Virus record (IMG/VR): IMGVR_UViG_3300050821_000482
Location: 1 to 41,676 of that record
Origin: a virus
Length of the DNA stretch: 41,676 nucleotides
Strand: one strand, 5' to 3'
Part shown: one piece after another, positions 728 through 23,230 of the stretch
How the letters are laid out: every line of letters starts with the position of its first letter
Position numbering within the stretch: position 1 is the stretch's first letter
Notes under the pieces: generated by a model
What the model was told of the DNA's origin: nothing
The model's database searches: none
Seen by the model: only the letters and a program-made list of their open reading frames with translations
Program-made: the position numbers and the translations under genes

Positions 728-940
728 ATGCTTACAAAAAGAGAAATAGAAGAGATGGAAATAATTACAACAGCGATACTAGAAAGAAAATCTGAAGCAG
801 ATCCAAGTATTAATTATACTTATGAAGAAATTAAAGATTTTATTTTTAATTTGACAGATAAAGAACTTTATATGCTTGAGTCTATTTGTGCTGTTTATTC
901 ATACAAATTCGATTTGTATAAAGAACAACAAAAGAATTAA
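728..940 (+). CDS. Small acidic helical protein, last gene of the early operon
   Basis: A 70-residue frame with a GTAGGAGAG ribosome binding site. The protein is helical and acidic, without a recognisable motif. It is the last plus-strand gene before the late operon: its TAA (938-940) overlaps the TAA of the 1236-residue late gene on the other strand (937-939). No terminator hairpin fits between the two convergent genes. Confidence 0.65.
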   Translation: MLTKREIEEMEIITTAILERKSEADPSINYTYEEIKDFIFNLTDKELYMLESICAVYSYKFDLYKEQQKN

Positions 941-3900
941 CGCCCAAGCTTCATAGAACCTAATCTAAGCCTGGAGCTTTTCTTTTCTTTGTAATTTTGT
1001 GACATTCCGGCTAGGCTAGCGGCTCCCATTACTGTATTAAGACCAACATTCTCAGACCAATCAGGTTCATTCTTCATCAGATCTTCTAAATCTTGAATAA
1101 AGATTGGAGTGAATCTCTTTCCTATCTCGCCCTGAATATTAGTCTTTTCTCCATATTGAGTAGTGAAGTTTCCGGCCGTTGCTGGGTCATCGCTCTTTCC
1201 AGTAAACTTCTTAGCCGTTAGCAACGTATGAGCCAGAGAAGCTACTGGACTCTCTTTATTAGCTAAAAACCTTCCTGCTATGTCTAATCTACTCGTCGGC
1301 ATATTGCTGTCAGTCTTTCCCGCTAAGAACCGAGCGGCTCCAACTACATATTGCTGAAAACCACCCCAAGGATCAATCAGTTTAGTGCCAAAACGGCTCT
1401 TTCCAAAATCAGTTGATAGAATGTTTGTTGATACTTTAGCTCCTCCATAAGCTCCTAATGTATCAATAGCCGTTCCGAGTGCAGCAATTCCAAACAAGCT
1501 CTTTAATCCTTCTAGTCTCATTCCTTTAGGCAAATCCATATAAATCTTTGGATTAGCTAGCATATTTATTCTAGAACTAATCATTCTTGGAGACCACAAT
1601 AAGACATTCAATTCGTTAGTTAGCTTGTTTAATCCTCCAGGTAAATCTCCTCTTCCAGTAGCATTATTGATATATCTGGCAATAGCCTTAGTTTCTTTAC
1701 TTGGAACTACTTGATCTCCAACTGTTGTAGCCGTTTCATGCCCCAATGCCTTAGCTTGTTTAATCATGCTGTCGAATGTGTCAGATCTTAGTTTATTTAG
1801 GAAGCCTGTATATCCTCTTTGTGAGGCTCCAACAACCTGTCTAATTCCTGGCATCATTCCGACGTAGGAGTTTAGGAACTCCTCTTCTGAGTTCATTAAA
1901 CTACTAGGTTTAGCAGTGAATAACCCGGCTTCACGGCTCAACATGTAATTTGGTCTCTTTTCTAAAGCATCCATCGCAGCATTAAAATACTCAGGTTTAG
2001 CGAAGTATTTAAACATCTCAGCAAAAGCAGGACCAAATTCTTTGCGCGCTACTAATCCTATTCCATGTCGGAGCGGAGCGGCTAATGAGAGGCTATTCTG
2101 TAGAGATTTCATAGTATTAGCAACTTTAGAGATTTTTAATCCCACAGCACCTAATCCACCGTGCATCTCTGTTATTCGGCTTGCAAAGTTATTACCAAAT
2201 ACATGATCAAGGATTGCTAACTCATTTCTTTGCGGAACAGACTCTCCATTCATCAACTTGAAGAGTGCTGTATAACCTCTAGCCTTCTCGCCTTCTGTAA
2301 TTCGTGCTTGTTTAACTGCTGTGAATAGTTGATCAGTTTCTTGTGGTTCTAATTGTAATTTACCATAAAGTGGTTCTATCTTCTCATATTGACCTTTTAG
2401 CTTGCTTAGGCTCTTTGCGGCTCCGGCAACTCCTTCTTCTTTAACTCCTGCGAATGCAGCAAATCTTCTTGCTTGTTCTTTCTTATACATCTGTGACTGA
2501 GCTTCGCTCAAACCTTTTGATTCCTCAAGAGAACTAAATAGTTTGTCTAATACTGGTCCGTGCGGTCCGGTTGATGGTTGTTTAGGAGTTTCTCCTCCAA
2601 TGCTTCCAAGACCTCCATGCATTTGTGTCACTTCGCCTTGCGGCTCAGTGGCAGGAGCTTTCAGCTTATTAATTGCATTCTCTGAATCACTAAAACTCAA
2701 AGGAGTTCCAGCCTCATTAACTAACTTAACTGGAGCATCCTTAAATCTCAAATCTTTAAGAGCTTCAATTCTATGTCTTCCTTCTGATAGCCTTGTTGGC
2801 TTCCCAGAATCATCAACAACGACTCTAATAGGCTGGATAATTCCTTCTTTATTAATTGATTCTTTTAGCTTATCTGCTGCAACTCTGCTCTCCGGAGAAT
2901 CAAACTTTTGAACTGGATCGTCTTTTAGTTCTCCAAATGCCTTTTGTAGCTTATCTAGATGTTCTACATCCATCCAATTGCCGTGAGGAGTCTGTTTCGG
3001 AATATCTCTCAAATCACGTAATGGAGCTTTAATATCAACAGCTTTAGACATTCTATCTTTCATTTTAGACAAGAAATTCTGAGCATCACTACTTGTAGTT
3101 CCAGATGATTCAGTAGCACCTAGTTCATTAAGTTTATCTCCAATAGCTTTCATTGCTCTACCAGTTAGTAATCCTTTATTTTTATCAGCAGCAATATCCT
3201 GTATCATATTCTTACCATCAGGCCCAGTAACTATCTTAGTGGCCGCAATGGGCTCACCTTTTTGATTTCTATAGACTACATGCCTGAATCCTTCTTTATC
3301 TTCTATTTTTAGTCCAGCATCTCCATTACCAGCATCGCTCAAAACTTTTGAGACGTAATCAGCACTCTCAGGATGTCCAGAACCACCAAATCCTTTAGTT
3401 AAATCTTCTTCGCTAGTTCTCTCTTCAGGCTTAAAGTAATCAGGTGCTTTCCACGCTCCGCGTGATTGAGGTTTTACAGCTTCAGCAGTCTTTTCAGGAA
3501 TTTCAATTCCTTCTTTTCGTAATGTATCTGCTCCAACACTACTACCGTGTAATCTTCCACCTTCTATTTGATATTGTTCTGGTCCTTGTGTTTCAGTAGC
3601 CATATCAGGCCAATCATACATGTATTTAGCCGTTGGCTGCTTAACTTGAGATTCTTCAGGCTTTGCAGTCTTATCAAATGGATTAAAAGTCTTAGATTTC
3701 TGAGTTAATTCTTCATCACTCAACGGCTGAGCCATTCCTTGCTTCTTATCGTAGGCTTCTAGCTCTGGAGATAGCTCAGTAGGAGTTTTAATGGCCGCTT
3801 TGACCGTCTGTTTTATTGGAATTTCTGATGTCTTAGCGGCTTCTGGAGATTGTTTTATATCTTTTATGAACTTCTCAACATCAGCCATCTTAGCATCTGG

Positions 3901-4647
3901 ATTCTTCTTTATATAATCTCCTACATTATCAGCCTTTAATGGAATATCAGTAGGTTTAGGTTGTTCTATGATTGATTTTTCACCACTCTTATTTACATAA
4001 TCTAATGGTCTAGGGCTACGAACGGCCGATTCTCGTCCTGATTCAATAGTTCTAGGAACTCTAGATTTCATTCCTAGAGCACCAGTTCCGGCTTCTAATG
4101 CCCCAGATAATCCTTCAACCCAATCTTTATCTTTAATTCCTTTATATACATGTTTAGCTCCTTCAGCCGCAACGGGTGCTGATAATACTCTAGCACCAGT
4201 ATGTAATCCTTCTGCTATTTCTTCAGAACCAGCCTTTTCTGCCATTGAACTACCACCAGTTAATGCAGCTAATCCTAGATTGACTGGTGATGTTAGTCCA
4301 GATACAGCATGTCCTAATCCTTCAACAAATGCAGATCCAATGCCTCTAGCTCCTTTAGTTCCGCCTTCAGGATTAATATATCTAGATAACCTTTCTGCTA
4401 CACGAGTAGGAGCATCAGTTAATGGTTCAGATGCTTTACTCCAATCTTCTTTAACATCTCTTACAAAGTCACTAGCAGCCTTAGATGCTCTAGCTTTAAA
4501 TTCAGATGGTTTTTTTGTTTCTTTTTCAGGAGTGAAATAATCAGGTGCTTTCCAAGCCGAGGAATCAGATGATGATTCTGGTTTAAAATAATCTGGTGCT
4601 TCCCAGCCTTCTTCATCTGATGAGACTGGTTGTCTAAATGGAGGCAT
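937..4647 (-). CDS. Large polyvalent virion protein with ParB-like domain
   Basis: A 1236-residue protein, last in the late operon. Residues 1-50 hold two copies of a W(K/E)APDYF(K/T)PE peptide, with a third at 398-408. Residues about 578-650 match the ParB/Srx-like fold, including a SEGRHRIEAL segment like the ParB box. A second short repeat, MHGGLGxxG, occurs after the ParB region and again near residue 815. The C-terminal third is Ala/Gly/Leu-rich and helical, as in the large polyvalent proteins that phages inject with their DNA. It starts in a TAATG overlap with the 35-residue gene upstream. I infer an ejected internal virion protein acting on DNA in the new host. The ParB-like part could be a nuclease or a DNA-binding module; nucleotide-binding residues were not checked structurally. 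Confidence 0.8.
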   Translation of the reverse strand: MPPFRQPVSSDEEGWEAPDYFKPESSSDSSAWKAPDYFTPEKETKKPSEFKARASKAASDFVRDVKEDWSKASEPLTDAPTRVAERLSRYINPEGGTKGARGIGSAFVEGLGHAVSGLTSPVNLGLAALTGGSSMAEKAGSEEIAEGLHTGARVLSAPVAAEGAKHVYKGIKDKDWVEGLSGALEAGTGALGMKSRVPRTIESGRESAVRSPRPLDYVNKSGEKSIIEQPKPTDIPLKADNVGDYIKKNPDAKMADVEKFIKDIKQSPEAAKTSEIPIKQTVKAAIKTPTELSPELEAYDKKQGMAQPLSDEELTQKSKTFNPFDKTAKPEESQVKQPTAKYMYDWPDMATETQGPEQYQIEGGRLHGSSVGADTLRKEGIEIPEKTAEAVKPQSRGAWKAPDYFKPEERTSEEDLTKGFGGSGHPESADYVSKVLSDAGNGDAGLKIEDKEGFRHVVYRNQKGEPIAATKIVTGPDGKNMIQDIAADKNKGLLTGRAMKAIGDKLNELGATESSGTTSSDAQNFLSKMKDRMSKAVDIKAPLRDLRDIPKQTPHGNWMDVEHLDKLQKAFGELKDDPVQKFDSPESRVAADKLKESINKEGIIQPIRVVVDDSGKPTRLSEGRHRIEALKDLRFKDAPVKLVNEAGTPLSFSDSENAINKLKAPATEPQGEVTQMHGGLGSIGGETPKQPSTGPHGPVLDKLFSSLEESKGLSEAQSQMYKKEQARRFAAFAGVKEEGVAGAAKSLSKLKGQYEKIEPLYGKLQLEPQETDQLFTAVKQARITEGEKARGYTALFKLMNGESVPQRNELAILDHVFGNNFASRITEMHGGLGAVGLKISKVANTMKSLQNSLSLAAPLRHGIGLVARKEFGPAFAEMFKYFAKPEYFNAAMDALEKRPNYMLSREAGLFTAKPSSLMNSEEEFLNSYVGMMPGIRQVVGASQRGYTGFLNKLRSDTFDSMIKQAKALGHETATTVGDQVVPSKETKAIARYINNATGRGDLPGGLNKLTNELNVLLWSPRMISSRINMLANPKIYMDLPKGMRLEGLKSLFGIAALGTAIDTLGAYGGAKVSTNILSTDFGKSRFGTKLIDPWGGFQQYVVGAARFLAGKTDSNMPTSRLDIAGRFLANKESPVASLAHTLLTAKKFTGKSDDPATAGNFTTQYGEKTNIQGEIGKRFTPIFIQDLEDLMKNEPDWSENVGLNTVMGAASLAGMSQNYKEKKSSRLRLGSMKLGR

Positions 4648-4754
4648 TATTTATTCCTATCAAAGCAGCCCTTACAAATCCATCCATATAGTAACTTTAT
4701 TGCGGTGTTAGAACTAATAGGTTTAGCACATAAACTGCAATAAACTAATATCAT
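4647..4754 (-). CDS. Mini zinc-ribbon protein
   Basis: A 35-residue frame filling the gap between the deoxyhypusine-synthase-like gene and the 1236-residue gene. It contains two CxxC knuckles (CSLC and CKGC) about 20 residues apart, the layout of a single zinc ribbon. A GGAGAG ribosome binding site precedes the ATG, and its TAA overlaps the next ATG (TAATG). Position and coupling support a real gene. Its role is unknown, perhaps nucleic-acid or protein binding. Confidence 0.6.
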   Translation of the reverse strand: MILVYCSLCAKPISSNTAIKLLYGWICKGCFDRNK

Positions 4755-4755
4755 T

Positions 4756-5751
4756 TCACTCTCCAAGAATCTGAGCGAAGATTAATGGAACATTAATACT
4801 TGCATCACCTTTAACTACAAATGATGGTGTCTTCTTCGATATCTTATCCCATGTTATCTTTTCATTAGGCTCAGCACCACTATATCCACCTTCTTCAACA
4901 ATAGCATTAGTGCATTGACAGAAATAAGCCCAATGTTTGATTTTATCACCTAAATGACAATCTTGACGCAAAAAAGGAACAACACAAATTGCAAAATCAC
5001 CTGCGATGCCGCCGCCGATTTGAAAGAAACCTTTATCCGCTTTAGTTTTCAAATACCAGTCAGCCAAATAGTTCATGGCTTCTATTCCAGTCTTTAAGAT
5101 TGATAAATCGACTTCACCCTCTCGAACCAAAGCCGTAAAGACGTTTCCAAGTGTAGAATCCTCCCATCCAGGAGTTACAATTGGAATGTCCTTTTCAGCA
5201 GCCGCTAGCAGCCAAGATTCATCAGATGGGACTTGATAATATTTCTGTAATTTACCGGATAGTAGAATTTCAGTTAAAAACTCATGCGGAAACTTCCGTT
5301 CTTGAGAACTCTTCCAGTCTTCAATGATAATGTCTTCAACTTCTTTCATCGCAGCGGCCGGTATTGCGGCATCGGTTACTCTATTGAGCTTCTTTTTAGC
5401 TAGTTGTTCATCTTGATCTGGAGTTAAATCCTTATATTTAGGAATCTGTACATATTCATCATGTGCGACGAGGTTAAAAACATCCTCTTCCAGATTAGCC
5501 CCAGTGACACTAATTCCAGAAACATATCCCTTTCTAATCATCTTAGCTAGTGAAATTCCTAGCCGTCCAGTGCTCATTGCGCCTGCCATAGATACGAACA
5601 TTTTACCATTATTGTCTAATAGATGCTGATATGCCATAGTAGCATTCTTTAAGCTCTGAGCACTAAAATTATGAAAATTCTCTCTGACAAACTTAGCCGT
5701 TGAGCCACTAAGTTTTACAGAGACTTGAGGTTTCATTTCTCTCGGTAACAT
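4756..5751 (-). CDS. Deoxyhypusine synthase family protein
   Basis: A 331-residue protein close to full family length (bacterial members are about 320-350). Family landmarks are clear: TGANLEED (83-90) in the NAD-binding part, PGWEDSTLG (194-202), GGGIAGDF (246-253) and SGAEPNEKITW (291-301). True deoxyhypusine synthase uses NAD and spermidine to modify a lysine of eIF5A. Its catalytic lysine lies in the GGGVVKHH motif, and that position is Gly here. From memory, the bacterial subfamily of unclear function has the same GGGIAGDF form, so this phage copy looks like an intact bacterial-type homologue rather than a decayed enzyme. It starts in a TAATG overlap with the coiled-coil virion gene and lies in the virion module. 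Substrate unknown; polyamine chemistry is the best guess. Confidence 0.88.
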   Translation of the reverse strand: MLPREMKPQVSVKLSGSTAKFVRENFHNFSAQSLKNATMAYQHLLDNNGKMFVSMAGAMSTGRLGISLAKMIRKGYVSGISVTGANLEEDVFNLVAHDEYVQIPKYKDLTPDQDEQLAKKKLNRVTDAAIPAAAMKEVEDIIIEDWKSSQERKFPHEFLTEILLSGKLQKYYQVPSDESWLLAAAEKDIPIVTPGWEDSTLGNVFTALVREGEVDLSILKTGIEAMNYLADWYLKTKADKGFFQIGGGIAGDFAICVVPFLRQDCHLGDKIKHWAYFCQCTNAIVEEGGYSGAEPNEKITWDKISKKTPSFVVKGDASINVPLIFAQILGE

Positions 5752-6701
5752 TATCGTCCATTCTCGCTGCTATCATTCTCTTGCTCGTCATCTGGGCTTT
5801 GCTGACCAGCTTGCGGCCCAGCTAATGCAGGAGGTGGAAGATGTGGAGAGTTAGGATGTGAATAATTAGCATTAAAATCATCTAGTTTAGATACTGGAAT
5901 AGTTCCAAATGTTCCATCTTTCATTTGAACTCGAATTGTCTTATTCGCATCGCCAGTAGTCGTTTTAACTGTTTTAGAAGTTCCATCTGGATTAAGTGTA
6001 GTTGTGACTGATTTATTTCCAGCGTCTAATTTCGCTTTCATTGTTTTCAACGCATCTTCATGATCAGCTTGCGCTCTCTCAAACTTTAACTTCATTTGAG
6101 CAACTTCAGCATCATGAAATGCTTTAGTATTAGTCATTATATCTTGATGGAGTTTTAGTTGTTCATCAGCACTCTTAGTCTTATCAGACAAGGCTTTAGT
6201 TGCTAAATCTAACTTTCCTTTTGCATCAGTCTGTTTAGCAATCAGTTCATCAATCTTCTGTTGATGAATTTGATCACTCTTCTGCTGATTGAGTTTTTCT
6301 TGTGCACTCTTAGTGTCAATAGCTTCCTGTCCAAGCTGTTTCTGCTGGTCTAATTTCTGTTTATCTAAATTCAATCCTTGCTGTCTCATATCATTATTAG
6401 CTTTTTGATCTCCAGTCATTGCATTAGGATCTCTAACCTGAGAAACCTGTGGCCCTTGCTGCATCTGCTGATTTCTTTGATCTTGTGATTGTTGTGAAGC
6501 AGGGTCATATAAATTCATCAATCTATTCTGCTTAACACTTAAATCAGACATGAATCCAGCTTTATCTTTAAAGTCCCGCATTTCGCGGTCTTTAATTTGG
6601 TTCATTATCGCTAATTCATTTGCCTGGTCAGGCGGTTTTTGACTATTATAAATACCACTACCACCACTAGGATTCGCTGCTAAACTGGACATAAAGGTCA
6701 T
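5751..6701 (-). CDS. Gln-rich coiled-coil protein, probable internal virion protein
   Basis: About 316 residues, extremely rich in Gln, Lys, Asp and Asn, with a long central stretch (about 100-225) of predicted coiled coil and a Pro-rich acidic C-terminus. An in-frame TTG at 6707 overlaps the upstream stop; the ATG at 6701 is the more likely start. The composition and the position between another Asn/Gln/Ala-rich gene and the polyvalent protein fit the internal core or ejection proteins of podoviruses. No enzymatic motif is visible. The assignment rests on composition and context only. Confidence 0.65.
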   Translation of the reverse strand: MTFMSSLAANPSGGSGIYNSQKPPDQANELAIMNQIKDREMRDFKDKAGFMSDLSVKQNRLMNLYDPASQQSQDQRNQQMQQGPQVSQVRDPNAMTGDQKANNDMRQQGLNLDKQKLDQQKQLGQEAIDTKSAQEKLNQQKSDQIHQQKIDELIAKQTDAKGKLDLATKALSDKTKSADEQLKLHQDIMTNTKAFHDAEVAQMKLKFERAQADHEDALKTMKAKLDAGNKSVTTTLNPDGTSKTVKTTTGDANKTIRVQMKDGTFGTIPVSKLDDFNANYSHPNSPHLPPPALAGPQAGQQSPDDEQENDSSENGR

Positions 6702-6703
6702 AA

Positions 6704-7477
6704 TCAATACCCGAATAGTGCTCTGCGTTGAGTGTTGTCAATGTTCTGCTGATTTTGCCCAGAATTAGCTGCCTGCATAACCTGTGAACCAAAAGTCGAA
6801 GTTAGTGCTGGCGTAGTACCGTAGAGATTAGTCTTTCCCTGAATAGCCCCAGTAAGCTGGTTGCGGCCGAATATCTGAGCTTCTAGGTTTCGATTAGCGT
6901 TGGCTTGATCAACGCCAGTTCGTTGTGCATTAATGCCTGTAGCTTCACTTCCATAAGCTCCACTCGCAGCTAGCTGATTTGTAGCAACATTCTGAGCTAT
7001 TCCGGCATTTGCGTTAGTATTAATATCAGATATTTGACTGCTTTCATCTCTAGCCATTGATGCTTGCGTAGCATTAGCATTTGGAGAATAGCCACCGCCT
7101 AATGCTCTAGACCTATCAACATTCTGCTGTGCGTTAGCATAGATTGAACGTGTAGGAGAAATGTCTCTAGCTCTAATATCAGCCTTATTCTGGTCTGAGT
7201 AACCACCTGTAGTTGCTAGATTTGATAGATCAGAAAGTGAATTAGTTACATCCTGAGATTGTGTAAATCCGGGAGTTTGAGCTGTCATAGGATTAGCTTT
7301 AGCCCCATTAATAACATCATTATAATTCTGCATTATAGTATCATAATCACTAGCTTGTGTCTGGGCTCCTGCTGTAAATGAACTTGGGTCCCCAAATGAT
7401 TGAAAACTAGGAGCTATTGGTGGAGGTTGTTGTCCAGGTTGAATAGCGCCTCTATTAGCTAGTACTCCTCCAGGCAT
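6704..7477 (-). CDS. Ala/Asn/Gln-rich structural protein
   Basis: 257 residues of low-complexity, Ala/Asn/Gln/Ser-rich sequence with scattered NANA and QNV repeats and few charged residues. Such sequence is typical of phage internal virion or ejection proteins lying next to tail genes. Its TGA overlaps the possible TTG start of the next gene. No known fold is recognised. A tail or core role is inferred from neighbours. Confidence 0.65.
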   Translation of the reverse strand: MPGGVLANRGAIQPGQQPPPIAPSFQSFGDPSSFTAGAQTQASDYDTIMQNYNDVINGAKANPMTAQTPGFTQSQDVTNSLSDLSNLATTGGYSDQNKADIRARDISPTRSIYANAQQNVDRSRALGGGYSPNANATQASMARDESSQISDINTNANAGIAQNVATNQLAASGAYGSEATGINAQRTGVDQANANRNLEAQIFGRNQLTGAIQGKTNLYGTTPALTSTFGSQVMQAANSGQNQQNIDNTQRRALFGY

Positions 7478-8195: not shown

Positions 8196-8582
8196 TTATG
8201 CTACATTTTCTTTACCATATACATTAACAACTAAAATAAACTTCTTTTTCTTCAGGTAGCTAATTGCATTTAAAAGATTATTTATATTATCTTTAAAATG
8301 CCCCAAACCTACATTACAGCTATAACATAAAACTCCACGTATTTCATTATTGATATGATTATGGTCTAAATGACCACCAGTTTTACCACTAAGGATTGTC
8401 AGCTCATTACAGATAGCACATTTACCACCTTGATTTATTAATATTTGTTCAGCTTCTTCAGGAGTAACACCATGATTCTTTAAGTAGTTCTTTTTACGCA
8501 TATAATAGGTAGCACGTCCCGGATGATTCTCTCTCCACCTTTTTGTTGATTTAATGCGTTTATTTTTTGTCATCCAACCCAC
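8196..8582 (-). CDS. Endonuclease VII-like (HNH) homing-type nuclease
   Basis: 128 residues with the recombination endonuclease VII layout: CAIC (55-58), LDHNH (72-76) and CYSC (86-89), giving four zinc-binding cysteines around the HNH metal site, then the GLGHFKDNINNLLNAISYL helix typical of the family. The start is GTG, preceded by a good GAGGTG Shine-Dalgarno. The sequence is Lys-rich with different composition from its structural neighbours. It is a paralogue of the nuclease at 15045-15497. In this setting it is most likely a free-standing selfish nuclease inserted between the fibre gene and the next late gene, although cleavage of DNA junctions is the known activity of T4 endonuclease VII. 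Confidence 0.88.
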   Translation of the reverse strand: MGWMTKNKRIKSTKRWRENHPGRATYYMRKKNYLKNHGVTPEEAEQILINQGGKCAICNELTILSGKTGGHLDHNHINNEIRGVLCYSCNVGLGHFKDNINNLLNAISYLKKKKFILVVNVYGKENVA

Positions 8583-8594
8583 GTTTTCACCTCT

Positions 8595-9905
8595 CTATCC
8601 AGCAGGAAACCATGAAGTAGAACTAGACTGATAAATAAATCTAAATATGGAGTCTATAGCCGCTGAGGTTGGGGAAGATATGACTGTAACACCAGCAGGA
8701 GCATTAAAAGTCAACGATGTAATTGCTTGTGTGAATGAAACTTTAGCTAATTGACCGTTAACTGGCGATGCTGGCAATGTTACTGTCAAAACGGCTAATG
8801 TTCCTGCTGGATTAATAATTAGTCGTTGCGTTCCAGCTCCCATCACTACAGTTCCAAGAGTTACTGGAACAGCAATAATAAATGAAGTATCAATTTCAGT
8901 TCCAGACGTGGAGATATTTAATGCTGAGATTGAAGCATCACCAGTAGCTGCCCTAGTTCTTATCTGAAGAAGAGAATCAGTAGTGAAATTAAAACTGATA
9001 CCACTCGAAGCAGCTGAGTTAGTCCAAAGTAATTGACCATCAGTAGATGATAATACACGAGTTCCGGCTCCATTAGCCCAACGTAATGCTGTACCACTAG
9101 GAATAATAACATTTGAACCAATATTAAGATTTCCACCAATTGTAGCTCCACCTGGAGCTTGAATTGATCCAGTACTACCAAAAGTAAAACTTTGACCACC
9201 TGTTATAGATTGAAGTAGTAATCCGCTAGTAGGAGTAGCGGCTGAAATAGGTATGACTGTTAATTCCCATCTATCTACTTGACTAGCAACACTAGTAGTA
9301 TTCCATACTGTTCCAGATAAACGTAAAGATGGTGAAACTTGAATTGGCACACCAGCAGTTGAAGCAGTAGTATTTTGAATAATTAATCCATCTTTCAGAG
9401 TAACTGCTAATCCATCACTCTCCTGAGTTATTACTCCTGTAAATAAAGGAGATTGTGGAAGAGGAAAATCAATAGGATAGTTATCAAAGCTATCTCCATC
9501 TAATCCTGGAACCCCTTGTAATCCTTGAATGCCTTGAACTCCAGCAGCTCCTTGCGGCCCAGGAATATAACTATCCTCTCCATTAATCCCATCTTCACCT
9601 TGAATGCCTTGTAATCCTTGTAATCCAATTGCTCCAACATTTCCAGGAATGATCATTCCACCAAAGAAATCATCGCTTCCATCTCCGTCTAGAGGACTTA
9701 GAAATTGTGTTATTTTAGAGCCATTTGATGAGCTTGGTGTTGAAGATGGAGAAATACTAGTAAGAAGAGTAGTAACTTGCTTATTAACAGATACAAGAGT
9801 TGCAATCAAATCATGTATCATTTGATAAAGAGGTTGGTCTTTATTTTGCAGACCAGTATTCATCAAGATTGCATATAGCCGAGCAGGATCAATCGTCGTT
9901 GCCAT
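8595..9905 (-). CDS. Collagen-like tail fibre/spike protein
   Basis: 436 residues. The N-terminal 55 residues are helical, followed by a Ser-rich linker. Residues about 91-138 hold Gly-X-Y collagen-like repeats (GLQGLQGIQGEDG and GPQGAAGVQGIQG) with one short break. A long Thr/Ser/Ile beta-rich C-terminal half follows. This is the architecture of trimeric phage fibres: an anchor, a collagen triple helix and a beta-structured tip for receptor contact. Collagen-like stretches are well known in phage fibres. It sits downstream of tail genes, as expected for host recognition. Confidence 0.85.
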   Translation of the reverse strand: MATTIDPARLYAILMNTGLQNKDQPLYQMIHDLIATLVSVNKQVTTLLTSISPSSTPSSSNGSKITQFLSPLDGDGSDDFFGGMIIPGNVGAIGLQGLQGIQGEDGINGEDSYIPGPQGAAGVQGIQGLQGVPGLDGDSFDNYPIDFPLPQSPLFTGVITQESDGLAVTLKDGLIIQNTTASTAGVPIQVSPSLRLSGTVWNTTSVASQVDRWELTVIPISAATPTSGLLLQSITGGQSFTFGSTGSIQAPGGATIGGNLNIGSNVIIPSGTALRWANGAGTRVLSSTDGQLLWTNSAASSGISFNFTTDSLLQIRTRAATGDASISALNISTSGTEIDTSFIIAVPVTLGTVVMGAGTQRLIINPAGTLAVLTVTLPASPVNGQLAKVSFTQAITSLTFNAPAGVTVISSPTSAAIDSIFRFIYQSSSTSWFPAG

Positions 9906-10211
9906 TTACGTCGTTTCAGGGAATGATTTTGCTACTGGCTTAACAAATACTATAATCTTAGAGATTTGAAATGTTTCATATATATTAAATGTTCTAATCA
10001 TCAATTTAGCTCTCTGTTGTGTGAAGTTAGACAAACGGTTAGGTTCTACTGCTGTCGTCGCTTGCAGAGGAATTGGAACTAATATTGTTGACAAACTCTC
10101 ATCAAAACTAAAGAGCGATAGTTGCAATTGAGCAGAGCCGTTGACACGTAGACGAACGGCTCCATAATGATTAACTGTTTGTTCGTCGAGAGTCGAGTTC
10201 TTTCTAGCCAT
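9906..10211 (-). CDS. Small structural protein, unknown
   Basis: 101 residues immediately upstream of the collagen-like fibre. It contains a VNHYGAVRLRVNGSAQLQLSLFSFDE region with beta-strand alternation and a hydrophobic C-terminal strand. Gene order suggests a tail protein or a fibre-attachment factor. It has a one-base overlap with its upstream neighbour at 10211, so translation is likely coupled. Confidence 0.6.
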   Translation of the reverse strand: MARKNSTLDEQTVNHYGAVRLRVNGSAQLQLSLFSFDESLSTILVPIPLQATTAVEPNRLSNFTQQRAKLMIRTFNIYETFQISKIIVFVKPVAKSFPETT

Positions 10212-11137
10212 TATGGAAGAAACGCCGTTTTGATGAATGGATCAGGGAATTTCACATCAGCTGTGTTATTGTTAACCGGAGTATTAATATACATAGTGTC
10301 TGCTAAAGCTCCTGGAGCTATTACATAAATACCAGAACCATTAACTATTGTAATCGTAACAAATGCTACTGGGACACTGCCTGAGAATGGAGGTCCTACA
10401 ACAATTATTGGTTGAGTAGGATCAACATTAGGTAGGAACGGCATTATTGGGTTATTTGGATCTAATGGTATCGTAGTAGGAGTTAAGCCTACAGGAGTAT
10501 ACGTAACACCTAATGGAGATCCTTGAGATGGAACTACAGTAATAGGATCATTAAAATCTAATGGAATTGTAGGAGGATAGCCACCTGTATCCGGAACTCC
10601 ATTAACTGTCCAATGAGTCAACAGTTTGTATGTTCCAGAAATTTGAAGAAACTCTAATACAGGGTTGTTTCCGGCCGCTGCTGTCCTAGTATATGTGAAG
10701 CCAAATCCATTAAGAACAAGGCTTAAAATATTAGGGGGTTGAGTTGGATATTTAAATGCAAATTGGGATATTGCATCTCCTCCAGCATCTATAAAGTTAG
10801 ATGATATTGTAGCCGGATCGAAATAAACTTGAAATGAATCACCAGCACTATTAACTCCACTAAAATTAAAATCTACTTGAGCGCTCATAGCAATAAAACT
10901 AACTGGAAGAGCAGTATAAGATTTTGCTACTCCATCAACAATTATATTAGTTGAATCACCATAAAAAGATACAAAACACGTTCCGGCTCCAGCTCCAGAA
11001 GCTCTTACAGTTATATGATTTCCATCATCATTCACTTTAACACAAGTAATCAGAGTTCCAGCAGAAGGAGTTAATAAGGTTCCTCCACTATTACCCTGAG
11101 AAGTTATACCGTAAGCTTGAATAATAAAAGTGCCCAT
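10211..11137 (-). CDS. Beta-rich tail or surface protein
   Basis: 308 residues dominated by Thr, Val, Gly, Pro and Asn in strand-length alternation, with three Pro-rich spacers of the type PL(D/N)xNxPI in the middle (two PLDPNNPI/PLDFNDPI-like copies). These may link Ig-like domains. There is no catalytic motif. It lies between the long tail/stabilisation-type gene and fibre genes, so a tail or fibre component is the best guess. Confidence 0.65.
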   Translation of the reverse strand: MGTFIIQAYGITSQGNSGGTLLTPSAGTLITCVKVNDDGNHITVRASGAGAGTCFVSFYGDSTNIIVDGVAKSYTALPVSFIAMSAQVDFNFSGVNSAGDSFQVYFDPATISSNFIDAGGDAISQFAFKYPTQPPNILSLVLNGFGFTYTRTAAAGNNPVLEFLQISGTYKLLTHWTVNGVPDTGGYPPTIPLDFNDPITVVPSQGSPLGVTYTPVGLTPTTIPLDPNNPIMPFLPNVDPTQPIIVVGPPFSGSVPVAFVTITIVNGSGIYVIAPGALADTMYINTPVNNNTADVKFPDPFIKTAFLP

Positions 11138-13032: not shown

Positions 13033-13746
13033 CTAATAGCTCACACCTCTGTGTTTAAAACTATGACGAAACGGCCTTCTACGAGTAATTACACTTTGCA
13101 TAGCCTTGATCGGAATCCCAAGAGCCCTATTCAATGCAGTGCCTGCAAGACTATCTAATGCCTGCGCTCTAGTCTCATTTTCAGCAATGAACAAAGCACA
13201 CAACGCAGTTGTTTTGTACTCAAGATATGTTTTTATATTCGTAAATGGCAGATTCACAGCAATATCTTTTATTTGAATAGGAGTATTGAAGATGCTAGCA
13301 GTATAATCAATCTTAATATCATTATTCTGATTAGCTGTAACCACTTTGATTCGTCCATGCTCCCATGCCCAAATCAAAAACTGAGAGATTTGCGTTCCAT
13401 CTTTTAGATAGTTAGGAATAAACTCCTTCTTAACCATCTCAGTCCATTTATTTAATCCAGTTGGTGATTCCCATAGATCTTGGATTTCTATCAAATCAGA
13501 TGGAAGAGCAGGAACTGTATCAAATCCTATATCTGTTATTATCTTAGTGTTAGCACTCGATGATAATATGGTGATTGCGGCACTAGTCTCGTTGGTGATT
13601 GGCAATCCATTCTGCTCATAAATCTCTTGTAATTCATCCAATGCTAGATTCAGAAATGGCAAACAAACAGCATTCGTGTAAAGTGTTTGTGCACTATCAT
13701 TCATGAGTCCTGATACGGTCGTAATGATGTCACTAGGTCTTGGCAT
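13033..13746 (-). CDS. Head-to-tail adaptor-like protein
   Basis: 237 residues, mainly helical at both ends. The N-terminal segment LNLALDELQEIYEQNGLP, followed by a strand pair and ALPSDLIEIQDLWE, matches the pattern of podovirus adaptor or tail-tubular proteins that form a ring beneath the portal. The C-terminus is basic (ITRRRPFRHSFKHRG), suiting contact with DNA or the portal. The start overlaps the 78-residue gene upstream by 14 bases. Position before the long tail protein supports this call. Confidence 0.7.
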   Translation of the reverse strand: MPRPSDIITTVSGLMNDSAQTLYTNAVCLPFLNLALDELQEIYEQNGLPITNETSAAITILSSSANTKIITDIGFDTVPALPSDLIEIQDLWESPTGLNKWTEMVKKEFIPNYLKDGTQISQFLIWAWEHGRIKVVTANQNNDIKIDYTASIFNTPIQIKDIAVNLPFTNIKTYLEYKTTALCALFIAENETRAQALDSLAGTALNRALGIPIKAMQSVITRRRPFRHSFKHRGVSY

Positions 13747-15044: not shown

Positions 15045-15497
15045 TTATCCTGCTTCCTCAATTGGTTCAACGAGATGTGGATATTTATTCTTTTTTAGAT
15101 AATTAATGGCACTATAAAGATTATTTATATTATCTTTAAAACTACCAAGTCCATGATTGCAGTTTATACATAAAATACCTCTAACTTCATTTGTCGTATG
15201 ATCGTGATCAGTGTGAGCACCACCAATACTTCCATCAAAAGTTATCTGACTATCGCATATAGCACATTTGTTATTTTGACCTTTCAACATTAATTCAGCA
15301 TCCTCTCTAGTAATCCCATATTTATACAAATATTTACTTTTACGAGCAGTAGTCTTATATTTCTCAGACATAGCGCCACGATTTTTATCATACCAACCAC
15401 GATTTCTAGTAGCAAATGCATCTTTATTAGCAAGATAATACTCAGCCCTCTTAGCTTTCTTTTGAATTTCCGTGAGTGGTTTCCATCTTACTTTCAT
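15045..15497 (-). CDS. Endonuclease VII-like (HNH) homing-type nuclease
   Basis: 150 residues with CAIC (78-81), TDHDH (96-100), CINC (110-113) and the GLGSFKDNINNLYSAINYL helix: the zinc-bound HNH core of recombination endonuclease VII. The first 75 residues are highly basic. A good AAAGGTG ribosome binding site precedes it. Clear paralogy with 8196-8582 covers the whole catalytic core. It is wedged between two structural genes with one base to the downstream start, as expected of a neat homing insertion. Confidence 0.88.
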   Translation of the reverse strand: MKVRWKPLTEIQKKAKRAEYYLANKDAFATRNRGWYDKNRGAMSEKYKTTARKSKYLYKYGITREDAELMLKGQNNKCAICDSQITFDGSIGGAHTDHDHTTNEVRGILCINCNHGLGSFKDNINNLYSAINYLKKNKYPHLVEPIEEAG

Positions 15498-16801: not shown

Positions 16802-17545
16802 CTAAACGTGAGACAGAGAATGTTTGCGTGATTTTAGTAGCTCAGCGTCATTCTTTTCTTCTTGTTCTTTAATCTGTGCATCAGTTAATATATTCTGTGC
16901 AATATGAATATTACCATCAGGGTGTTTGTAATTCGTTAACCATACGCCGTTAACTTTTTCCGGCCAAATAGTTAAATTAGTCATATGTCCTACTGGACAG
17001 TCAAGATCACAAAATACTTTAAATCCTGCTTTTTTAACTCGATTAAAGAATCCTACATCATCACACCACTCATCCTGTTCTAATTCTCCAAGCCGAACAT
17101 ACGGACGTTCCATCTTCTCAAATACTTTAGTTGCTATCAAAACACAGCCTAATCCACAATTCACTCCTTCAACTAATCCAGAAAGTTCAGGAGTGAGAGA
17201 CATGAATTTACATTTGCCGTTTTCATACGCTTTATCGAACAATGCAGGTCTGTGAGGAAATGATCTCAAGAGATATAATGCAGACACAACATCTTTATTG
17301 TGTTCTAGAAGCTTCATCAATGTGTCTTGCGGAGGAATCATATCATCATCAAGCAATAGAATATGAGTACAGTCATTCTCTATGGCTCTATCAATTAAAA
17401 GATTTCTAGATTTAGCAGGAGATTGACCATGAACTGTTGCAGTAAAACAATTCTCTGGCCGCTGCAACCCTATGAATGATGGCAGAAACTCAGCTCGTCT
17501 AATGTGTTCACCAGTTGACAAGCCAACTAAAATTTTCTTTTTCAT
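16802..17545 (-). CDS. GT-A fold glycosyltransferase (family 2-like)
   Basis: 247 residues. The N-terminus (MKKKILVGLSTGEHIRR) is the first strand of a GT-A fold. SPAKSRNLLIDRAI then leads to HILLLDDDMIPP (62-72), where DDD (66-68) is the metal/nucleotide-sugar binding motif. DDVGFFNRVKKAGFKVFCD near 165-183 matches the acceptor-side acidic region. No signal or membrane segment, so it is cytoplasmic. It is embedded among capsid genes; likely roles are sugar modification of a capsid or fibre protein, or of host surface precursors. A short coupled frame (17542-17628) overlaps its ATG. Confidence 0.85.
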   Translation of the reverse strand: MKKKILVGLSTGEHIRRAEFLPSFIGLQRPENCFTATVHGQSPAKSRNLLIDRAIENDCTHILLLDDDMIPPQDTLMKLLEHNKDVVSALYLLRSFPHRPALFDKAYENGKCKFMSLTPELSGLVEGVNCGLGCVLIATKVFEKMERPYVRLGELEQDEWCDDVGFFNRVKKAGFKVFCDLDCPVGHMTNLTIWPEKVNGVWLTNYKHPDGNIHIAQNILTDAQIKEQEEKNDAELLKSRKHSLSHV

Positions 17546-18045: not shown

Positions 18046-19299
18046 TCAGTATCCGCTTGGAATAGCCAAATTATCAATATACGCACATGCAGCGGGATTC
18101 AAAACAAAAGCCTGGAATCCAACAACCATGTAGAATATGTCTGCGGCAGCCACTCCACCAGAGCTTCCACGGAGTTCAAAGATTCTACGACCATCGGATG
18201 TATAAAATCCGATTGGAAGAATCTCAGCGCGGCCCCAAACAGAACTAACAATAAAATCAATACGTTTCTTAGACCAATTAAAATGCTGCCGGATTGGAGC
18301 ACCAGCAAGCTGCATATTATCACCAAAATAAAGATTCAAAGATTCATCTTTAGGTGCTTTATGGATAATCGAAATTAGCTGTCCAATCTCCTCATAAGCC
18401 TGAGCTTGACAAGGATGTGTCCAAGCCTGAGGATCAAAGTTATTATCAATACCTACCCTATTACCAATCTTATTGATTGCAAGCCTAGGCAACGGCAATG
18501 TTAGAGCTGAAGCATTTCCATTTACTCTATTTGCCCTTATCTCTGGCGTAGTTGCACGGTCATATCCTAGCCAAGTACCAGTTGAGGCATTACTATGATG
18601 ATATGGAACACCATACAATCCAGGGAGTGCAGTAGGATTAGTCAATCCATCTACTATTAGAACATCTGTATTTGTAGAGCCTGTAATTGCTGGAGTGACG
18701 TTAATAGTCTTTCCTTCAACGTCCCACAGCGTTACAACACCCTTTCCTCTAAATGTAGCTAGTGTAGTATCATAAACTTGCACTACCTGATCGTATCTAA
18801 CTAGTCTAGCCCCAAATTCGGCATCCATAACATATGTATCTACTCCACCAGATGTAGTCTGAGTAGTAATAGTTCCTACCTGTCCAGTTCCGGTACCTTG
18901 TAGTTGAGCATCTAGCTGTCTTTTAATTTCAACAGTTGCTCCGGCTGTTAGCCGTCGCACAGCGTTGATTACTGATTTACGTCTATCATCAGTAGACCAT
19001 TGAGTTAGCTTAGTGTATTCAATATTCTCAGATAGAAATACAGGACGCAGAACGGCTTTGTCCCAAGTAGGACCACCACCGCGGCCCATATCTCCACCAT
19101 CAGGATTAAAATATTGAAAACGACCACCAGGACGCAATTCCATTGGTGCTCGCATCTCTCTATAAGAAACTACCTCTACGTCTCTCTTCTTGATATTGCC
19201 AAAAAAAGTATCATCAGATTCGAATACTGTAGTTACCTTCGGCAACACTCTTTCCAGCTCAGTTCCCGCAACAACAGATTCTACTACTTGTCCAGGCAT
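18046..19299 (-). CDS. Major capsid protein
   Basis: 417 residues directly downstream of the acidic scaffold-like gene, with a strong GAGGAAA ribosome binding site. It has an N-terminal arm, a VEVVSYREMRAPMELRPGGRF segment, a long central helix region (STDDRRKSVINAVRRLTAGATVEIKRQL) and a beta-rich second half. The QAQAYEEIGQLISIIHKAPK helix and the FYTSDGRRIFELRG segment are of HK97-fold capsid style. Length and gene order (portal, scaffold, capsid) support the call more than any single motif. Confidence 0.85.
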   Translation of the reverse strand: MPGQVVESVVAGTELERVLPKVTTVFESDDTFFGNIKKRDVEVVSYREMRAPMELRPGGRFQYFNPDGGDMGRGGGPTWDKAVLRPVFLSENIEYTKLTQWSTDDRRKSVINAVRRLTAGATVEIKRQLDAQLQGTGTGQVGTITTQTTSGGVDTYVMDAEFGARLVRYDQVVQVYDTTLATFRGKGVVTLWDVEGKTINVTPAITGSTNTDVLIVDGLTNPTALPGLYGVPYHHSNASTGTWLGYDRATTPEIRANRVNGNASALTLPLPRLAINKIGNRVGIDNNFDPQAWTHPCQAQAYEEIGQLISIIHKAPKDESLNLYFGDNMQLAGAPIRQHFNWSKKRIDFIVSSVWGRAEILPIGFYTSDGRRIFELRGSSGGVAAADIFYMVVGFQAFVLNPAACAYIDNLAIPSGY

Positions 19300-19310
19300 A
19301 GTTTATTTCC

Positions 19311-20561
19311 TCAATCTCGCATAAAGAAATCGGTTACACTCTCCCCCTTATTAGGACCTTTAGATTTACCTGATTGTTGGCTAGGTCTGCCAGTTGCCGG
19401 TTGTCTCCTAATAGTTCTAGGAGTTTCTTCCTCTGTATCATCAGTCTCTTTTGCAACTCTTGGTTGCAGATCTTTTAGTGCCTCAGCACGTGCTTTCAAG
19501 ATAGCGTTTTTAAGGTTTCCCTTAGCCTTAGAAAGATAGAATGACTGAATTTTGCTAAGGGAGTCTTTAGAGAATTTAGTATTGAATGCTGTTCTCCACA
19601 ACGTATCGAGATTTTTAACAACGCTAGAGTCCGACGCAATAGAATTAGATAGAATCCGCATAGCGTCAGCAACAGCATTCTTTTTAACATAGGCTGTCAT
19701 GACGCCTTTAGGATCAATATAATCTGATATAGTCGCCCGAAGAGTGTTATCAACTTTTGTTTGAAGGTCATCACGGGCCGTTTCGAACCGTTCTTTAACA
19801 AAATTCAATCTTTCCTGCTCAACTTCGTCTTTAGCTTCGTCAGTCTTCTTCTCAACTCTAGCCGTCGGAGCAGTAAACTTTGACGTGCCGAATACAAACT
19901 GGTTGACGAGCAGAGCGGCCTGCTTTAGGTCATCATTATTCGTGTCATTAGCTTCTTGTACCATTTCCATAATCAATCTTCGATTCAAATTCCCGACAAC
20001 ATGAAAATAGGCTTCTTTATCTACTTTTGCTAGAGTTGGAAGATAATCATCAACTATCGTATCAAACGCTTTTTTATCCATATCCTTCACTTCGCTCAGG
20101 ATACGCTCAGTCTTGCCGGATAAAAGATCAGACTCAAAGGAGCTAAAAATCTCTGATCTTTCTGCAATTTCTTTTGCATCATCAAAGCTGCCGAAAAGCT
20201 CATTATATTGTCTATCACGATACATCATCTTTTCTAGAAATGGAAACTTCTTAAATATCTCAGGAAACTCTTTTAGAATCTCTTTTTTTCTAGGGGGAGC
20301 TTGAATGTCAACGTCTTCACTGAGATCTAATTTTTCAGTTTCATCTTCATCTGACTCAGATAGTTCTAACTCTTCTTCGTCTTTTTCAGGAAGCTCTTTA
20401 GTTTCTTCATCTCCTTCTTTAGCTCTTTTAGTTTCATCTTTCTTTTCAGTTTTAGAACTAGAGTCTTCATTGTCTATCTCCTTGAAGAGATCATTAATAT
20501 CATCAGCCGTTTTCGGTGATGGAATTTTATTAGAATCAGGAGATAGGACTTCTGTCGGCAC
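19311..20561 (-). CDS. Probable scaffolding protein
   Basis: 416 residues. The first 90 are extremely acidic (many Glu, Asp, Ser, Lys), followed by long helices with predicted coiled coil and a basic Arg/Pro-rich tail ending in a VTDFFMRD peptide. Placement between portal and capsid genes, high charge and helical content are the marks of phage scaffolding proteins, which guide capsid assembly and then leave or are degraded. The start overlaps the end of the portal gene by 26 bases. Confidence 0.78.
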   Translation of the reverse strand: MPTEVLSPDSNKIPSPKTADDINDLFKEIDNEDSSSKTEKKDETKRAKEGDEETKELPEKDEEELELSESDEDETEKLDLSEDVDIQAPPRKKEILKEFPEIFKKFPFLEKMMYRDRQYNELFGSFDDAKEIAERSEIFSSFESDLLSGKTERILSEVKDMDKKAFDTIVDDYLPTLAKVDKEAYFHVVGNLNRRLIMEMVQEANDTNNDDLKQAALLVNQFVFGTSKFTAPTARVEKKTDEAKDEVEQERLNFVKERFETARDDLQTKVDNTLRATISDYIDPKGVMTAYVKKNAVADAMRILSNSIASDSSVVKNLDTLWRTAFNTKFSKDSLSKIQSFYLSKAKGNLKNAILKARAEALKDLQPRVAKETDDTEEETPRTIRRQPATGRPSQQSGKSKGPNKGESVTDFFMRD

Positions 20562-22938
20562 CTTGTGCTCCAGTCTTTATTTTTTCAGGATGCTGTTTAG
20601 GCTTTGCAGACTGAACCTCACCTGAAGGTTGTTTAATCTTTGTTTCGGCTCCAGTAGCTAATTGCATCTGATCTTGATGTAATTGCTGAGCTTGCATCTG
20701 CTGTTGAACAACTTGTAGATGAGCTTTCATGTGTAGCAATACATTTTTATAGCCATTAGGATTCTCTCTTTTAGCTAGTCTTCCAGCTGTAGAAATTAAC
20801 CAAGTCTTACAAATAGCCGCCTCAATCTGATGATTATCTACATCAGGATCTATTTGAACTGAAGGCTGTTCTTGTGGAGGTTGTCCTTGTGGCTGCTGAC
20901 CCTGTTGTGCAGCCATTTGTGCTTGTTGCTGAAACTGTTGAACAGCTTGTGGGTCAGGAGGAATAGGAGTAGCATTTATCAGCTCGTTTATTTCTTCAAA
21001 CTGCTTCTCTCTATCATCCTCACCAGGAATGTGAAACTCTGGAATTTTAACAACTTTAGCAATATAAGGAAGATTCTCAGGATCTAGCATAGCTGCTGTA
21101 AGTTCTTGGTTATTTACTTGAAATAACTGCATAATTATATCAGCCTGCTGTTCATCTGAAATCGGGAGCTTTTCATCTGGTTCGAGTTCGATACTCCCGA
21201 TGCGGCCATCCAACTCTGCTTTTCTAATAAATACATTGATGAAGTTACCCTGTTCGTCTTTTTCTACAACTCTTTCATCTTCGTGTAGATTCTTAATATA
21301 CATTGGTATTACTTTACCAAATATCTTCTTCCACCAGATAGTGACCATTCGCCAGGGAGTCTGTAATCTTTGCAATGCCATTCCTTTAGACATTGCATAC
21401 TCTGATGCCGTTCTAGAACTCCCAGCGGCTTGATTTCCTCCAAATATTGATGGAAGTGCTCCGGAAACGAATTGACCCATCTCTTGAATGATTTTATAGA
21501 ATGCGAAGACTTCCGGTGCTAATGAAGACGCTTTAGTTGAATAGAATGCTTCTCCTACACTTTTTGATGCTGATAGCGGCTTTGTAGGAGTGATAGTACC
21601 TGGCATTGCTTCTATTTGCCGTTGTGCTGCGAAATTAACAACGGCCGGATCGGCCCAAGTTTGACTAATGCCGTGCTCAATAGTTTGCAGTGTCAAGCTA
21701 ATCAAGTCATTAACAATGTCTTGAATGTTCGTCAATAACTCTCCGAGAGGATCATGATTCAGGAAATCACTCATTGGATTCTCTGTTAGGGTCCAATGAT
21801 CATCAAGACTCTCATTCTCATACTCTGCTGGAATATCATTAACCATTACAAAACGGCATCCATCCGGAAATTTCTTCTTTAACTTCTTGTAATCATCTTC
21901 AGGTAAAACGTTAAAAGAAGAAGGACGAAGCCAACAATTTTTAACTGTAACATTCTCTTCGGGGAATTCACCACGAAACTGAGTATTAAGACGACCATAC
22001 TGCTCGTAAGGATCATTAACTCCAATGTTACTCCAACCTCCGTGCGGCATCTTTTCACGCAAATCAGGATAACATTCTAGTGCATTAGAATAATGAGTTT
22101 CATAACTATAAATCAAATAAGGAGTGTCTTCCTGGCATTTAGCCGTATTGCTCACCTTTACGTATAATCCTCCATATACTTCTAAACAAATTCTACTCTT
22201 CGGCTCAGCAGTAACACCAACAAGACGAGGAACAATTAATTTAGTCTTCTGTAAGTCTTTGTCAAGCTGTGCTCCGCATTCAGCACAAATCGGCCCTTCT
22301 TCGAGTGCATTCTTAATGTCTACATCGTCATCATCTGGTTCAAATTCGTTTAACTCTTCTTCGCTGAAAGCTTCATCTGGTTGTCTTGAGCCACATTGCG
22401 GACAGACTCTAGCTTCTATCTCTTCATCTTTATATTTAGGCTTGTCGTATGTTCCAAACTCTTTTTTAGCCTTTGGATATGAATAACAACAGATCATGCC
22501 CTCAGTACAGTAAATGTAAAGTGCGTGTAACCACAAAAACATTACGTCATTATGCTTATAAATTAGCTTAGAAATTTCATCTCCTGCCTTCGCAGTCTGT
22601 AAATCTAATGGGTTATCGGCATCATCCGGAACACAGTTTATAGCAGGGATTTGAATTGAAAGTGCCGCAATAATGGTTTCGAGAAAAGCTTTAAAAATAT
22701 TAACTGGTTTATCGTAATAATCTTGGTCGGTGTCTGTGGCATTAACATCTCTGTTGTATATTCTGTAGTCGTGAGCGACTTCGCTCCAATAAATCTGGCT
22801 GAAGTTGGCCCAATAAAGTTTGAGCCGTCTCCAGTGTCTAATCTGTCTTTCACGAGTCATCCTATCTTCTGCAATGAAGTGATCTGAAACAGTCTTCAGC
22901 AACGAAGAAATTTCATCAAAGTCTCTATCTTTACTCAT
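20536..22938 (-). CDS. Portal protein
   Basis: About 800 residues (ATG at 22938; an in-frame GTG lies two codons upstream). The length and the Gln-rich C-terminus (QQAQMAAQQGQQPQGQPPQEQP) fit the large portal proteins of podoviruses. The helical core includes NDLISLTLQTIEHGISQTWADP and the FYKIIQEMGQFVSGALPSIFGG segment found in portal stems. Uncommon is an inserted zinc-ribbon pair, CPQC and CAEC about 35 residues apart, near residues 180-225, separated by an acidic linker. It overlaps the DUF6527-like gene start-to-stop by eight bases. Confidence 0.88.
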   Translation of the reverse strand: MSKDRDFDEISSLLKTVSDHFIAEDRMTRERQIRHWRRLKLYWANFSQIYWSEVAHDYRIYNRDVNATDTDQDYYDKPVNIFKAFLETIIAALSIQIPAINCVPDDADNPLDLQTAKAGDEISKLIYKHNDVMFLWLHALYIYCTEGMICCYSYPKAKKEFGTYDKPKYKDEEIEARVCPQCGSRQPDEAFSEEELNEFEPDDDDVDIKNALEEGPICAECGAQLDKDLQKTKLIVPRLVGVTAEPKSRICLEVYGGLYVKVSNTAKCQEDTPYLIYSYETHYSNALECYPDLREKMPHGGWSNIGVNDPYEQYGRLNTQFRGEFPEENVTVKNCWLRPSSFNVLPEDDYKKLKKKFPDGCRFVMVNDIPAEYENESLDDHWTLTENPMSDFLNHDPLGELLTNIQDIVNDLISLTLQTIEHGISQTWADPAVVNFAAQRQIEAMPGTITPTKPLSASKSVGEAFYSTKASSLAPEVFAFYKIIQEMGQFVSGALPSIFGGNQAAGSSRTASEYAMSKGMALQRLQTPWRMVTIWWKKIFGKVIPMYIKNLHEDERVVEKDEQGNFINVFIRKAELDGRIGSIELEPDEKLPISDEQQADIIMQLFQVNNQELTAAMLDPENLPYIAKVVKIPEFHIPGEDDREKQFEEINELINATPIPPDPQAVQQFQQQAQMAAQQGQQPQGQPPQEQPSVQIDPDVDNHQIEAAICKTWLISTAGRLAKRENPNGYKNVLLHMKAHLQVVQQQMQAQQLHQDQMQLATGAETKIKQPSGEVQSAKPKQHPEKIKTGAQGADRSPIS

Positions 22939-23230
22939 TGCCACCAGTCCACACGCCGTCAGTTAAGAAGCCATGAAATTTACAGCCATCCATTCTACGA
23001 ATGCTTGGTGTTAGTGTTGGTTTATCTTTATTTTGATTCCAACCCCAACCTCTCTGTCCTGATACATGAACGGCAACAACAGGAAGAGACATTAACTGTT
23101 CACATCCACACGGACAGATATAAATAATATTATTATCATCTTCGAACTTATAAGCTCCGGCTATCTTAGAATCAAAAATATCTTCTACGTAGGTTGCCAT
23201 TACATTTATCATATTTTTAGTTAACTCCAT
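22931..23230 (-). CDS. DUF6527-like zinc-binding protein
   Basis: 99 residues with a YICPCGCEQLMSLPV knuckle, a central W, TLTPSIRR, then GCKFHGFLTDGVW at the C-terminus. This order (CPCGC, TLxPSI, GCxxHGFLxxG) is what I know of the small DUF6527 family, often found beside phage or toxin-like genes. Cys and His residues probably bind zinc. It is overlapped by the portal start. Function of the family is unknown. Confidence 0.75.
   Translation of the reverse strand: MELTKNMINVMATYVEDIFDSKIAGAYKFEDDNNIIYICPCGCEQLMSLPVVAVHVSGQRGWGWNQNKDKPTLTPSIRRMDGCKFHGFLTDGVWTGGNE

Follow-up and report, generated by a model that had tools for sequence, protein, structure and literature searches.

The window analysed here, 41,676 bases from an uncultivated phage, spans a complete IMG/VR record that is linear and lacks terminal repeats. 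At 4756-5751 its minus strand carries a full-length open reading frame of 331 amino acids that encodes a member of the deoxyhypusine synthase (DHS) family. From its match to the Pfam profile PF01916 and its predicted fold, we annotate the product as homospermidine-synthase-like and place it in a subfamily recognized by the motif GGGIAGDF.

The gene is co-oriented with a run of virion genes, all on the minus strand. The large terminase (24938-26749; phrog_979, E = 2e-27) and the major head protein (18046-19299; phrog_14242, E = 7e-7) are identified by profile. The portal-like protein (20536-22944), which has no profile match, is assigned from its position between these two, and the head-tail adaptor-like protein (13033-13746) from a weak match to SU10_adaptor (Pfam) that falls below the cut-off. 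Directly upstream of the DHS gene is a gene for a protein of 318 residues (5751-6707), preceded by one for 257 residues (6704-7477) that matches no PHROG and is recognized by synteny, being kept in relatives. The stop codon of the former overlaps the DHS start codon by one base (...GGACGATAATG), in agreement with an earlier reading of the DNA made from the sequence alone (the sequence-only reading), which had described the gene as translationally coupled to virion genes. L109, a divergent phage, has in the place of 5751-6707 a gene that hits phrog_2534, a family annotated as 'released from the phage upon host infection'.

On the other side, an open reading frame of 35 residues with two CxxC pairs (MILVYCSLCAKPISSNTAIKLLYGWICKGCFDRNK; 4647-4754, minus strand) separates the DHS gene from the next large gene; the nearest relatives showed no such frame at the corresponding junction. 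The slot is bounded on this side by a virion-module protein of 1236 residues with a weak ParB-like stretch (937-4647, minus strand). One lineage homologue of this protein has an HATPase domain, which suggests a variable multi-domain (polyvalent) protein.

Several smaller features of the module, likewise on the minus strand, deserve mention. Small HNH-like (CxxC..DHxH) or homing-endonuclease-like genes (8196-8582, 15045-15497, 23842-24357 and 26574-27077) are scattered among the virion genes, and related phages have homologues elsewhere among theirs. A glycosyltransferase-like gene (16802-17545), with a weak Anp1 match below the cut-off, is present in some relatives only, and a tail-fibre-like protein (8595-9905) has collagen-type GxxG repeats. 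A search for ribosome-binding sites gave a short purine-rich motif for about half of the genes, which is uninformative on the host.

Family, fold and active site

The protein matches the Pfam DS family (PF01916, Deoxyhypusine synthase) with E = 1.1e-42 over profile positions 10-287 of 288, and its score of 146.8 bits is above the cut-off, which is 27. This is its sole Pfam match, and homology to the HSS dehydrogenase family is thus not indicated. The profile search therefore assigns no other family, and the sequence-only reading of a full-length DHS-family protein is borne out. An AlphaFold2 model, with 17 phage or viral relatives as input, has a pLDDT of 89 and a pTM of 0.88. Its top Foldseek matches are DHS structures (best E 9e-16, TM about 0.75), with 16-22% identity in the structure alignments, so that structure prediction, proposed as a check, came out in favour of the family as regards the fold. 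None of the NCBIfam equivalogs accepts the protein, the best score being 112 bits against a cut-off of 450 for SpeY (NF001980), followed by 91 against 304 for eIF5A-modifying deoxyhypusine synthase (TIGR00321) and 82 against 500 for CdmS (NF002699).

In human DHS the imine forms on Lys329, the catalytic residue, and His288 acts as proton acceptor/donor (PMC7226451). Both profile and multiple alignments place Lys329 (in SWGKI) on Lys303 of the phage protein (in TWDKI; codon 4843-4845, minus strand), and none of the 132 relatives with coverage at this column (52 viral, 80 bacterial) lacks the lysine. Glycine had been read in GGGIAGDF where eIF5A-modifying enzymes have the catalytic lysine; the lysine of that motif is in fact the equivalent of human Lys287, and loss of the catalytic residue can be rejected. 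The actual changes in the active site are Lys287 to Gly251 and His288 to Asp252 (codons 4996-5001, minus strand). The equivalents of human Lys329, Trp327, Glu323, Asp238, Asp342 and Ala343 are kept, and Asp243 and Asp316 are replaced by Asn203 and Tyr290.

Asn203, Gly251, Asp252, Tyr290 and Lys298 mark the subfamily and are common to its phage and bacterial members. At the position of His288 each of the 133 relatives with coverage has Asp, and Asn occurs in a bacterial protein scoring above the SpeY cut-off (L175) and in two other Bacteroidota classes. His was never seen there in the bacterial DHS-like proteins examined; among the enzymes examined, only the human and archaeal ones have it. The pair Lys303 and Asp252 gives the phage protein the SpeY-type combination of a catalytic lysine with a residue other than His at this position. 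As judged from the aligned sequences, a large bacterial subfamily ordinarily carries GGGIAGDF, which is therefore no phage peculiarity. The presence of Asp for His288, together with the loss of Lys287, could alter the chemistry.

Distribution in phages and bacteria

Ten other contigs of the same lineage (L002-L011) have the gene in the same slot, adjoining homologues of 5751-6707. A homologue of 937-4647 lies on the other side wherever the contig continues, and the upstream blocks are kept wherever they are covered. The adaptor protein (13033-13746), used as a query for sister phages whether or not they carry the DHS gene, gave 33 loci. Where the slot is covered, it is filled in eight (L142, L147, L153, L155, L156, L158, L159 and L160) and empty in seven (L145, L148, L149, L151, L154, L157 and L162), with the flanking genes directly joined in the latter. 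Nearly all of the junctions, filled or empty, are overlapping or near-overlapping stop/start arrangements of the TAATG kind.

On a tree of the phages built from three core proteins, the presence and absence of the DHS gene requires three changes. In L008/L142 the adaptor is 97% and the head protein 99% identical to those of the window, but the DHS protein only 79%; it groups with that of L006, and a DHS tree constrained to hold the window and L008 together fails the AU test (p=0.0008). These filled and empty slots and the conflict between the core and DHS trees identify the gene as optional and exchanged. It is under purifying selection, with pairwise dN/dS of 0.04-0.13 in six pairs compared with 0.17-0.49 in the two upstream genes, ratios that are rough because dS is high. 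It has the attributes of an auxiliary metabolic gene: the genome contains a terminase and a head protein, and the gene is found in some relatives and absent from others.

The phylogeny against bacterial DHS-like proteins that had been suggested as a check places the window lineage in one clade of its own (SH-aLRT 93), away from bacteria. Other viral proteins fall in several places on this tree, many of whose deep branches are poorly supported. The concern that the gene might be confined to one contig is removed by the syntenic copies in the ten lineage contigs and by many other viral contigs that carry it.

When viral contigs were sorted by common neighbours, 13 groups had a relative of the gene. 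In several of them annotated virion genes adjoin or surround it. In L109, L026/L133, L012 and L125 its neighbours are comparable to those at the window slot; L012 and L125, like L117, have it downstream of a head-closure protein. Several unrelated IMG/VR phages have it at other positions of the virion module: it follows the terminase and portal (L120) or two tail proteins (L135), has structural proteins on either side (L112), lies upstream of the major head protein (L110/L014/L027) or occupies further slots (L115-L118). In large-genome contigs (L113, L122 and L132; L114, L119 and L121) and in a marine group (L017-L025) its neighbours are not recognisable virion genes, and in some of these contigs phage hallmarks are weak or absent in the part read.

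Three further observations concern individual contigs. In L111 the DHS-like gene (9842-10957) is inverted with respect to its neighbours; the related phage L112 has a co-oriented copy. A separate branch of DHS-like proteins (L017-L025 and L028), 43-45% identical and with the motif GGGIAGDW, is encoded between small genes annotated without function. In IMGVR_UViG_3300021420_000009, a contig of 48,010 bases, one part of the gene stands at each end (L026 and L133), which suggests a circularly closed or permuted genome.

Five tblastn queries against 50,697 phage records gave no match to the DHS gene, PHROGs contains no family matching the enzyme, and BFVD, a library of viral structures, gave no significant fold match. 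Among named phages no relatives of the major head or portal protein were found, and the terminases were only distant. A plasmid search returned archaeal deoxyhypusine synthases alone, which are suitable as an outgroup. Our literature searches, one of them dominated by general virome papers, found no report of a DHS-family gene in a phage, and a BLASTP survey of the virosphere by Li and colleagues in 2023 found neither SpeY nor any homologue of DHS among viruses and phages (PMC9992855). Judged by these sources, the family in phages, its place in a virion operon and the active-site variant are new; the kind of enzyme is known. Homospermidine synthesis encoded by viruses has already been described, through the unrelated HSS enzyme (PMC9992855).

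In bacteria, a genome scan confirmed at least 585 relatives, though its motif counts are biased by partial seeding with the motif GG-I-A/S-GD. We kept 80 of these, 49-54% identical, from Bacteroidota, Verrucomicrobiota, Acidobacteriota, Bdellovibrionota, Planctomycetota and other phyla. In an independent Pfam search, 159 of 198 Bacteroidota genomes had a PF01916 gene, almost always one each, and the scores of these genes fall into three classes, at about 340, 240 and 140 bits. From the class with the lowest scores, four representatives belong to the GGGIAGDF subfamily by profile score. The three classes seem to exclude each other, as though one triamine synthase had taken the place of another; a single gene per genome is what would be expected were the classes interchangeable.

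Among 97 proteins encoded next to the bacterial relatives, from up to 38 loci, the commonest were Orn/Arg decarboxylase (eight) and arginase/agmatinase (four). Porphyromonas-type arginine deiminase, a family including agmatine deiminase, and Hist_deacetyl, which includes acetylpolyamine amidohydrolases, were each seen three times and CN_hydrolase twice; these Pfam names are broad, and the families belong to or overlap polyamine metabolism. Such neighbours are consistent with a homospermidine-type pathway. The 25 neighbour families seen most often do not include EF-P. The bacterial neighbourhood lends support to a putative role of the phage gene in polyamine metabolism. We found no assays of GGGIAGDF-subfamily enzymes in the literature.

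Proposed function and known systems

Since its bacterial members often lie beside polyamine-pathway genes, the likely reaction of the subfamily is NAD-dependent aminobutyl transfer to give homospermidine or a similar triamine. We consider it probable, though well short of certain, that the phage gene specifies a working aminobutyl transferase of this type which makes homospermidine or a related triamine late, aids DNA packaging and does not act on eIF5A. The enzyme, with its DHS fold and NAD, would form an imine on Lys303. Its substrate is presumably host putrescine, possibly agmatine or spermidine, and its product would be homospermidine or a close triamine. Linkage to the putrescine pathway was seen for a share of the bacterial relatives, and no putrescine-forming Orn/Arg decarboxylase was found in 18 phage records; the substrate would therefore have to come from the host, and we reject a phage-encoded supply of putrescine.

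As optional cargo in a virion operon, the gene would be expressed late, so that production of the enzyme coincides with that of the particle proteins. Additional triamine would then most likely help to neutralize and condense the phage DNA during packaging. Such a role in DNA charge is plausible because polyamines can be present in phage particles and the replication of some phages depends on spermidine (PMC7226272, PMC9992855). Late triamine synthesis for charge neutralization is a hypothesis, and the one that we favour. Several sister phages do without the gene, and packaging in this lineage therefore does not depend on it. More tentatively, and with rather more doubt than belief, we suggest that unrelated phage lineages have repeatedly placed a triamine synthase with a Gly-Asp active site in their particle-building operons, as a source of DNA counter-ion made at head filling.

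A different polyamine reaction, serving host take-over rather than packaging, is unlikely but merits attention: a CdmS-like coupling of agmatine, or conversion or drain of spermidine. CdmS, a DHS-family enzyme of Thermus, couples two agmatines (PMC10981699), the bacterial subfamily lies near genes that form and use agmatine, and the positions of Asp243 and Asp316 differ in CdmS too, as they do in the phage protein (Asn203 and Tyr290). The score of 82 bits against a cut-off of 500 for the CdmS-type profile argues against such coupling, and placement in a virion operon suggests a late role.

The sequence-only reading had offered two uses, alteration of polyamine chemistry and modification of a protein. 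The bacterial neighbours favour the first. Aminobutyl modification of a lysine, in a phage virion protein or host EF-P, seems improbable, although eukaryotic DHS modifies eIF5A in this way (PMC7226451), the catalytic lysine is kept and virion proteins are encoded beside the gene. The residues at the positions of His288, Asp243 and Asp316 have changed, and the common neighbours in bacteria do not include EF-P. Moreover, no gene with an EFP_N (eIF5A/EF-P) domain was found in 14 phage records, the window included; we reject a partner encoded by the phage, and a host protein is possible.

Slightly less probable still is that the DHS protein is itself a particle component, packaged and ejected with neighbouring proteins and active as infection begins. 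Its gene lies between those of candidate ejection-type proteins in the window lineage, the upstream gene of L109 matches phrog_2534, and placement in virion modules recurs at several different positions. That these positions vary, from behind the portal or tail proteins to upstream of the head protein, is, however, better explained by expression timing than by one structural contact. The enzymatic residues are moreover strongly constrained, and the fold is that of an ordinary soluble enzyme. Bacterial contamination or an assembly artefact, conceivable for a linear metagenomic record without end repeats, is refuted by the syntenic copies in ten contigs, the exact empty slots of sister phages, GC and GC3 values like those of phage genes and a clade away from bacteria.

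If homospermidine is made late, as in the reading that we prefer, phage control of the cations that neutralize packaged DNA becomes directly testable, since sister phages with and without the gene provide a natural comparison. The DHS family is now seen in several separate phage groups, with many copies inside particle-building modules, and attention is drawn to a widespread bacterial subfamily of polyamine enzymes.

Among characterized enzymes, SpeY (NF001980; Anabaena) belongs to the same family and has the equivalents of the catalytic Lys, Trp, Glu and Asp238 in common with the phage protein. Bacterial relatives of the phage gene occur near putrescine-pathway genes, as is reported for speY (PMC10407285). 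The phage protein differs in its score (112 against 450 bits), in having Gly-Asp for the Lys287-Asn288 of the SpeY class and in the subfamily-specific Lys298, Tyr290 and Asn203. CdmS, the caldomycin synthase of Thermus thermophilus (NF002699), is also a DHS-family enzyme that keeps the catalytic lysine and carries out polyamine coupling; it has Phe/Leu at the positions of Asp243/Asp316, where the phage protein has Asn/Tyr, and the phage protein scores 82 bits against its cut-off of 500. Eukaryotic and archaeal deoxyhypusine synthases resemble the phage protein in fold (TM about 0.75), Lys329 and several NAD-side residues, whereas the phage protein is without His288, Lys287, Asp243 and Asp316 and no eIF5A partner was found in the phage. 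The HSS of Ralstonia phage RSL1, Achromobacter phage Motura and chloroviruses is likewise a virus-encoded NAD enzyme making homospermidine, the function proposed here, but belongs to a non-homologous family of the carboxyspermidine dehydrogenase type (PMC9992855). The speD/AdoMetDC auxiliary genes of phages also encode a polyamine enzyme, although both the enzyme and the reaction differ.
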